64,000 nucleotides of DNA from Microbacteriaceae bacterium (lineage in GTDB: Bacteria; Actinomycetota; Actinomycetes; Actinomycetales; Microbacteriaceae): assembly GCA_947373155.1 (NCBI GenBank), contig CANBWO010000005.1:1-64000 (forward strand), read 5' to 3'. The position numbers and the translations under genes were made by a program. The notes under the pieces were generated by a model, which saw only the letters and a program-made list of their open reading frames with translations, made no database searches and had not been told where the DNA came from. This document shows positions 61,299 to 63,024 of this stretch, one piece after another. Numbering within the stretch: the first letter of the stretch is position 1; each line of letters opens with the position of its first letter.

Positions 61299-61607
61299 TT
61301 AGAGCTTGATCTCGATGTTGACGTCTGCAGGAAGGTCGAGACGCATCAACGAGTCAACTGCCTTAGGAGTTGGGTCGATGATGTCGATAACACGCTTGTG
61401 GGTGCGCATCTCGAAGTGCTCGCGGCTGTCCTTGTACTTGTGAGGGGAACGGATTACACAAACCACGTTCTTCTCGGTAGGTAGAGGCACTGGGCCAACT
61501 ACGGTCGCACCGGCACGGGTAACCGTGTCCACGATCTTGCGAGCCGAAGTGTCAATGACCTCGTGGTCATACGACTTAAGTCGAATGCGGATTTTCTGGG
61601 CCGCCAT
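61299..61607 (-). CDS. rpsJ: 30S ribosomal protein S10
   Basis: 102 aa, first gene of the S10 operon. [20 protein letters not shown] at the start, [16 protein letters not shown]. Also a NusB partner in antitermination. The 445-bp region upstream holds the operon promoter(s) and a threefold 11-bp motif. Confidence 0.98.
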
Positions 61608-62052
61608 CTTGACTCTCTTTCGTTCACACCCTCGGCCAAATGACCTAGGGACGCTTTAGTAGCACTACTTCTGTTGCACCACTGTTTATCTGTCAATCCG
61701 CCGGAATGCCAAGGTTTTGAAGCCTTGCCAGGAACCCGGTGGGGTACTGCTTTACCCACCCACGCTGTCGGGCGTGTCGCCTAGACGACACAAAATCCAA
61801 CATCAAATCGATGGTTACATTTTTGGTTCTTGCTGCGGCCGGCCCAGCTATTTACAGCTGTTCACATTGCCTACAGTGACGCGCGCGAAAGCACGCAGAT
61901 TTACGAACTTGTCTATCCTGCCACACTCGGGCGTGTCATTGCAAGTTTTTGTTGCCCGAATTAGTAAAGTTCTTTTTCTTTTGTTTATCTGGGTTTTTCA
62001 AACCAAAGTGGCGTACACGGAGTCGGGTGTGTCGCGTCACTCCAGACCTCTG
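61608..62052. promoter_or_regulatory. S10-operon upstream region
   Basis: A 445-bp spacer without a credible gene. On the minus strand it contains TTGACA (61691-61696 region) and a TTGGCA...TAAACA pair as promoter candidates, none with ideal spacing, then a leader of about 80 nt to rpsJ. The motif TCGGGYGTGTC occurs three times (listed separately). A 134-codon open frame on the plus strand looks spurious. Such length is unusual for this compact genome and suggests strong regulation. Confidence 0.55.
61768..62033. repeat. Three copies of TCGGGYGTGTC upstream of the S10 operon
   Basis: Copies at 61768-61778, 61927-61937 and 62023-62033, all in the same orientation; on the transcribed strand they read GACACRCCCGA. 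The outer two share more context (GCGACAC-CCCGAC). Spacings are 159 and 96 bp. Confidence 0.75.
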
Positions 62053-63024
62053 TTACTTTTCGAGCTCTCCTGCAAAAGCGGCCTCGATCCGACCAACCAA
62101 ATAGTGCTGAGTTTCAGTTGACAGGTGCGTGTTATCTGCATAAACCAGTCGCTTGGCAATCACCGGTGGGCATTTTTGGTCCACGCATAACCACATCGAT
62201 GGGTCTACCCAGCTAAACCCGTATTTCCGAGACAGGTCGGCCAGTAAAGATCGCACGCGCGCCGCCTGGTTTGCCGTTCGGCTCGCGTAACACGGCCGCA
62301 CGTCGACTAAGTGAACGGCCAGGCAATCTGGGGCGGATCCCTTGGGTTTTGGTGTGTCCCCAATCACCAGAATCCTCGACCCAAGGCCCGCGAGGGCGGC
62401 AAGCCCCGCTTTGGTGGCAGCGAGGTTCTTGACTTCAATTCCCGAGTAGCCCGAAACCGCCACAAAAGTTGGTTTTCTGATGCCGATTTGCTGTAACAGC
62501 CACTGATTGTGAGCCTTGCATTGCCAGTAGTTTGCTTTGGGGTCATCTAGCGCGGGCACACCAATAACTAAGGGGCAACTACTCATGGTGCGAACCACTA
62601 GTTGATAATGATGTTTTTTTGCAAGGTAGTTGAGCGGTGTGAACCATTGGGCCGCGTGAGAATCCCCGATGAGCCAGATTGCCCTGGTTGCACGCGCGTC
62701 ACCAAATATGCAGGCAGCCGCAGGAATCGTTGTTTTTTGATTTCCGTGACAGCCATCTCGGTAAATCTTGGTTCGATTGGTTACAGACGCAAGCCGTGCC
62801 TTTTCGCTGGCAGGCAAGGATCTCACGGCCAACGCCGATTGTAAGTCGGCTACATAAATCTGAAGCAGGCTCGGCGGAGCCTCTAGGCCAGTTGCAGCAA
62901 CCTTAGGAGTAAAGCGCTTGATCACCTTAGGTACCGCGTAGCCCGCCACCAAAACGCCAGCCACTAAACCCAGCACGAGCAAAAATACAAAAATCCCCCG
63001 AGCCTGAGCCCGGGGGATTTTCAT
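62053..63024 (-). CDS. Membrane-anchored SGNH-domain protein
   Basis: 323 aa. One N-terminal helix (IFVFLLVLGLVAGVLVAGYAV), then an extracytoplasmic domain with block I AIWLIGDSHAAQWFTPL (GDSH) and C-terminal YADNTHLSTETQHYL (Asp/His), plus several cysteines. It resembles the SGNH domain found at the C-terminus of OafA/YrhL acyltransferases, here without the acyltransferase part. Probably acts on O-acyl groups of surface glycans. The first codons after ATG 63024 coincide with the tuf terminator hairpin, so a later start (a TTG or GTG before the helix) is possible. It starts 20 bp after tuf. Confidence 0.78.
   Translation of the reverse strand: MKIPRAQARGIFVFLLVLGLVAGVLVAGYAVPKVIKRFTPKVAATGLEAPPSLLQIYVADLQSALAVRSLPASEKARLASVTNRTKIYRDGCHGNQKTTIPAAACIFGDARATRAIWLIGDSHAAQWFTPLNYLAKKHHYQLVVRTMSSCPLVIGVPALDDPKANYWQCKAHNQWLLQQIGIRKPTFVAVSGYSGIEVKNLAATKAGLAALAGLGSRILVIGDTPKPKGSAPDCLAVHLVDVRPCYASRTANQAARVRSLLADLSRKYGFSWVDPSMWLCVDQKCPPVIAKRLVYADNTHLSTETQHYLVGRIEAAFAGELEK
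62990..63021 (-). terminator. Intrinsic terminator of tuf, inside the next gene's start
   Basis: AAAATCCCCCG / CGGGGGATTTT, 11-bp stem with 10-nt loop. On the minus strand it continues into TTTTTGTATTTTTG. It lies 23 bp after the tuf stop and covers codons 2-12 of the SGNH gene. Confidence 0.85.

Follow-up and report, generated by a model that had tools for sequence, protein, structure and literature searches.

Three exact copies of the 11-mer GACACRCCCGA lie in one orientation in front of rpsJ, the first gene of the S10 ribosomal-protein operon, in this member of the Microbacteriaceae, and they are very probably operators through which the regulator WhiA would control the operon. WhiA is widespread in Gram-positive bacteria, where it is known chiefly for its part in sporulation and division. 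The assignment follows from three points: the core of the repeat equals the published WhiA core, its position has been published as a target of WhiA, and the genome has a whiA gene. A link between WhiA and the rpsJ operon is already known; here the sites number three and are arranged around a predicted promoter (P1), and the same spacer contains a conserved, uncatalogued structured RNA, a candidate new ribosomal-protein leader detected in Microbacteriaceae. Coordinates refer to the window, i.e., the whole 64,000-nucleotide stretch of DNA that was analysed, and the features are summarized in Table 1.

Table 1. Features in and next to the spacer before rpsJ (window coordinates).
Feature	Coordinates	Strand	Description
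rpsJ	61299..61607	-	30S ribosomal protein S10; first gene of the operon
Site 3	61755..61778	-	GACACGCCCGA followed by the tail CAGCGTGGGTGGG; 24-bp form found class-wide; roughly 130 nt after the predicted transcription start
Leader RNA	61820..61909	-	90 nt; three-way junction with GUUC/GAAC closing at the predicted 5' end; from covariation
Predicted transcription start of P1	about 61909	-	
Predicted promoter P1	61915..61944	-	TTGCAA (61944-61939), 18 bp, CAGGAT (61920-61915), then AGTTC; inferred from conservation
Site 2	61927..61937	-	GACACGCCCGA; within the 18-bp spacer of predicted promoter P1
Site 1	62023..62033	-	GACACACCCGA; 89 bp upstream of the predicted -35; 20 bp beyond the SGNH gene stop

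The repeat before rpsJ and its conservation

The spacer, 445 bp long, is bounded by the rpsJ start (61607) on one side and by the stop of an SGNH-domain gene (62053) on the other. A first, sequence-only reading of this DNA had described three same-orientation copies of TCGGGYGTGTC before the S10 operon, and these are present where it placed them, all on the plus strand (61768-61778, 61927-61937 and 62023-62033), corresponding on the rpsJ strand, in ascending position, to GACACGCCCGA, GACACGCCCGA and GACACACCCGA. The neighbouring SGNH-domain gene (62053-63024, minus strand; PF19040) is located between tuf and rpsJ and shows a weak partial match, far below the cut-off, to the acetyltransferase SucT.

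A genome-wide count, proposed with that reading, returned GACACRCCCGA exactly three times, always in the spacer, when both strands of the draft genome were searched (54 contigs, 91% complete, 1,565,984 bases, i.e., 1.57 Mb); the pattern read backwards, used as a control, had no exact copy. No excess was found at up to one mismatch, either genome-wide (34 places including the three exact ones, versus 48 for the reversed control) or in the window (3 found versus 2.40 expected, with 49 of 100 shuffles reaching three). The signal of the repeat therefore resides in its exactness and clustering, and a wider WhiA regulon is not visible with this motif. When the spacer was dinucleotide-shuffled 300 times, one shuffle contained a family of three 11-mers, of any kind, at up to one mismatch. 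The helical phasing of the sites, which are 96 and 159 bp apart, was considered and dropped, since the distance from the promoter to site 3 varies in relatives.

Conservation before rpsJ, another check proposed at the outset, provides the stronger evidence for the repeat. Across the order, rpsJ was found in 35 of 59 sampled genomes (this one included), and in the 30 loci examined the 700 nt upstream contained the 11-mer exactly in 27 and with one mismatch in the other three. Among named actinomycetes, the best 80 of a larger number of loci carried it within 500 nt upstream, exactly in 48 and with one mismatch in 32, while in the same best 80 loci neither the reversed motif nor an exact motif in the first 500 nt of rpsJ-rplC occurred (0/80 each); the 30-locus and 80-locus sets overlap at least once (L024/L082). 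Many copies share a common tail, giving a consensus of about GACACRCCCGA-SYKCGKGGGTCGG.

In other orders of the class, the exact 11-mer was present in 12 of 25 loci, the remaining 13 having neither the 11-mer nor GACACRCC. Presence in this sample (L223-L249) varied with the gap between tuf and rpsJ: the motif was absent from all 12 loci with a gap of 85-165 nt and present in 12 of the 13 where the gap was at least 183 nt or tuf was not found by pattern, the exception being L239 (246 nt). The element thus accompanies a separate spacer and presumably a separate promoter. Within the genus, three copies were found in two of 29 loci (here and in G453), two copies in four and one copy in 23, one of these single copies having a mismatch; some genus loci represent the same place twice (e.g., L010 and L122), so that neither these 29 nor the 110 loci used below are all independent. 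A counterpart of site 1 was present among the 29 only here and in G453 (L120).

The predicted promoter P1 and WhiA as the probable reader of the sites

The P1 pattern recurs in 12/12 genus rpsJ loci and 21/25 further loci, of which only the 12/12 is free of circularity, because the genus loci L120 and later were found via the promoter pattern itself; five pattern matches that plainly are not rpsJ leaders were left out (L135, the second match in L138, L140, L142 and L144). When the pattern was loosened, 85 of 110 loci had it ahead of rpsJ, versus 1 of 110 for its reverse complement and 11 of 1100 shuffles. A scan with the sigma-70 consensus did not report P1. By eye, a P1-like box with an AGTTG start also precedes an apparent rplS start (L142 near 1482, genome G024), and other ribosomal genes may share this promoter type.

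The place of site 2 within the P1 spacer could be followed through 25 distinct genus sequences, where GACAC is found in 15, GACACGC in 13 and the full 11-mer in 3; at this promoter-embedded position GACAC is thus retained while the CCCGA end drifts. Most other loci inspected, which we take to be Microbacteriaceae from their genus names, have one copy, GACACGCCCGG, immediately before the TTGC box. Five Microbacterium loci (L042, L044, L050, L085 and L100) carry a further copy 17 bp away, within the promoter spacer, so that the second of these tandem WhiA-type cores is placed like site 2 here. The site-3 type lies downstream of a P1-like box in all 67 loci that have both (at 94-293 bp in 65 and at 28-29 bp in two) and is therefore probably transcribed. 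No TANNNT (-10-like) sequence at a constant offset that would point to a second promoter near site 3 was found in 79 loci.

All three copies are exact for GACACRCC, matching the GACAC and GAYACRCY forms of the WhiA core. The WhiA encoded in this genome has all three Pfam domains and scores 332.9 bits against TIGR00647, and its helix-turn-helix domain shares 72 of 83 residues with WhiA of PDB 8dy7 chain I; whiA was present in 396/396 genomes sampled from the order. According to passages of PMC3781837, WhiA of Streptomyces venezuelae binds GACAC, rpsJ is among its ChIP-seq targets at a distance of 75 bp, and rpsJ expression is down in a whiA mutant. In Mycoplasma gallisepticum, passages of PMC11701221 describe WhiA as binding the GAYACRCY core before rpsJ, repressing, and responding to ATP, and state that most of the whiA-bearing species examined there, from phyla including Actinobacteria, have the core upstream of rpsJ. 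The proposal of a regulator binding site, made in the sequence-only reading, is thus well supported, and the regulator can be named; a growth-rate role is not shown by these data, though the term comes near the ATP/starvation role published for M. gallisepticum WhiA.

The S. venezuelae site shares with those described here the GACAC core, the position upstream of rpsJ and the regulator family, but the passages of PMC3781837 list one peak, whereas three exact copies occur here; moreover, the target is down in the S. venezuelae whiA mutant, and the present host, judging from its small genome, is presumably no spore former. The M. gallisepticum operator (passages of PMC11701221) shares the core, the operon and a placement downstream of the start, like site 3, but has a GTTGT auxiliary motif where site 3 has a GCGKGGGTCGG-like tail, and the copies described here also occur in and upstream of the promoter. 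GTTGT, a clade-specific Mollicute feature, was absent from the approximately 30 nt after each of the three copies.

It is unlikely that another conserved actinobacterial regulator or an RNA-polymerase accessory element reads the motif, with WhiA as a bystander. Such a reader would account for the 24-bp conserved block at site 3, which is longer than the GACAC pentamer of WhiA, and for whiA-bearing genomes outside the class that have no motif before rpsJ. In a phylum sample with whiA in 95 of 148 genomes, rpsJ was examined in 20 of the 53 genomes without whiA and in 30 of the 95 with it, and was found in 20 and 29, respectively; the locus was not located in 3/20 and 3/29, and loci with less than 150 nt upstream were left out (3 without whiA, 2 with). 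The core was then present before rpsJ in 0/24 loci with whiA and 1/14 without, the single case sitting inside the preceding gene, so whiA alone does not predict the motif; this comparison is confounded by tuf-rpsJ adjacency, as rpsJ is often close behind tuf and outside the class there is mostly no separate rpsJ spacer. Against another reader, the published WhiA core is part of the invariant stretch of the motif, and the 75-bp ChIP-seq distance in S. venezuelae (passages of PMC3781837) fits the class-wide site, whose 24-bp form lies at a similar distance (-88) in L238, a class member with a large genome. A bipartite WhiA contact, core plus GTTGT auxiliary motif, is also published for M. gallisepticum (passages of PMC11701221), which again speaks against a different regulator.

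Slightly less probable still is a role of site 3, and of the motif generally, at the RNA level within the S10 leader, e.g., through a CCGA...UCGG hairpin near the start codon. The constant position of the site-3 type downstream of the P1-like box is in its favour, but neither site 2, within the promoter, nor site 1, further upstream, would be part of the P1 transcript. In 50 distinct site-3-type sequences, moreover, three of the five pairs of the hairpin stem are unpaired in 5, 9 and 27 sequences, departures that are not matched by two-sided compensation, and the hairpin was rejected on this ground. The suggestion that the copies are RNA leader elements is also unsupported in that none lies inside the covarying RNA described below. 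Chance repeats in a long spacer are very improbable, given how the motif is retained before rpsJ across the order and in part of the class, and given the 1 in 300 shuffles, even though the motif was picked after the fact, its one-mismatch counts in the window and genome are not above expectation and site 1 is conserved only in one near relative among the 29 genus loci; conservation refutes chance for site 3, whereas for site 1 taken by itself it is possible. WhiA operators thus remain the reading that we prefer for the three copies.

A candidate leader RNA between sites 2 and 3

Although the motif copies themselves are not supported as leader elements, a structured leader RNA is nonetheless present in the same spacer. 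An alignment of 27 sequences from the genus and one of 20 from other Microbacteriaceae gave branched folds that agree, and the GUUC/GAAC closing stem was recovered in the 20-sequence non-genus set and again when the window leader was folded singly. An alignment of 42 sequences (10 from the genus), fitted to the model, was drawn from 52 sources, the 10 without a match not being part of it; L079, which has an extra minus-strand match, was excluded from the sources. In this alignment, 97.6% of 941 cells are standard pairs, and two-sided changes occur in 15 of 23 pairs (110 cells in total); none of 500 shuffles reached any of five measures, and slid controls paired at 21.8-47.9%. Freely made alignments gave a similar picture: the genus alignment was 91.9% paired with no shuffle reaching any measure, and the non-genus alignment was 98.3% paired, two of its measures being reached by 2 and 22 of 500 shuffles.

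The leader model was trained on the 20 non-genus sequences. In the window, its sole match was 61820-61909 (16.9 bits, E 0.047); matches at E<=1 were also obtained in 11 of the 32 genus sources, and the 18 loci from other families gave none. Applied to a second set, the model recovered 14/14 held-out Microbacteriaceae loci, among them the genus member L062 only weakly (E 0.095), as well as a minus-strand match in L079 (E 0.13), with one weak downstream match among 46 other loci (L072, E 0.67). As the window match by itself is weak, the case for the leader rests on covariation, which identifies a conserved structure in front of a ribosomal-protein operon. Folded alone, the window leader adopts the same shape as minimum free energy and as centroid structure, with an ordinary energy (z -1.11).

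No Rfam family matches the leader, a lax threshold giving three matches at chance level. Mimicry of 23S rRNA was examined with the rRNA of G005, none having been detected in the draft genome under study: 3 of 48 leaders (L043, L044 and L124) beat the best of 20 shuffles, at differing places of the rRNA, and the window leader showed no resemblance above its 20 shuffles; taken together, the leader set gave no sequence resemblance to 23S rRNA. An S10 leader RNA of Firmicutes is named in passages of PMC7247131, which give no S10 leader for Actinobacteria, and a limited literature search yielded, among the matches listed, no title reporting an actinobacterial S10 leader. By description, the Firmicutes and Microbacteriaceae elements have in common that a structured leader precedes the S10 operon. 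The Microbacteriaceae element is described here as a candidate ribosomal-protein leader.

Between site 3 and rpsJ, a second block is observed on the minus strand (61656-61696, TTGACAGATAAACAGTGGTGCAAC..AGTAGTGCTACTAA), which by eye recurs in the genus loci L007, L010 and L012 and, more loosely, in other Microbacteriaceae; it may be another RNA element.

Proposed control of the S10 operon

In the proposed mechanism, the helix-turn-helix domain of WhiA would read the GACAC(RCC) core at each site. At site 2, between the -35 and -10 boxes of P1, the main predicted promoter, bound WhiA would compete with RNA polymerase, and repression would follow. Site 3, which lies downstream of the predicted start and carries an additional GCGKGGGTCGG half, would represent the old class-wide site; the M. 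gallisepticum WhiA site is likewise also downstream of the start, and because its effect on elongation is very weak (passages of PMC11701221), no simple roadblock is argued at site 3. Site 1 would be an additional copy specific to the lineage, one that may increase WhiA occupancy locally. Poor conditions would then lead to net repression and plentiful energy to release, as in M. gallisepticum. Net repression is only somewhat favoured by analogy as the sign of the WhiA effect, which differs between species, the S. venezuelae data suggesting activation and those from M. gallisepticum repression.

There is about an even chance that two stacked controls act on the S10 operon of Microbacteriaceae from a single spacer, namely WhiA operators within and near the promoter and a new, covarying three-way-junction leader RNA that senses a ribosomal protein or another ligand. 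Under such an arrangement, the GUUC/GAAC closing stem would use the predicted 5' end of the transcript, and in this genus a further WhiA site would lie inside the leader, after the sensor RNA.

At the strength given above, these observations locate WhiA at a ribosomal-protein operon in an actinomycete whose small genome has no exact copy of the 11-mer elsewhere. The idea that tuning of ribosome supply is an old, shared task of WhiA thereby becomes directly testable in simple strains, and, if the leader RNA binds a ribosomal protein, it would constitute a feedback element of the Microbacteriaceae S10 operon.
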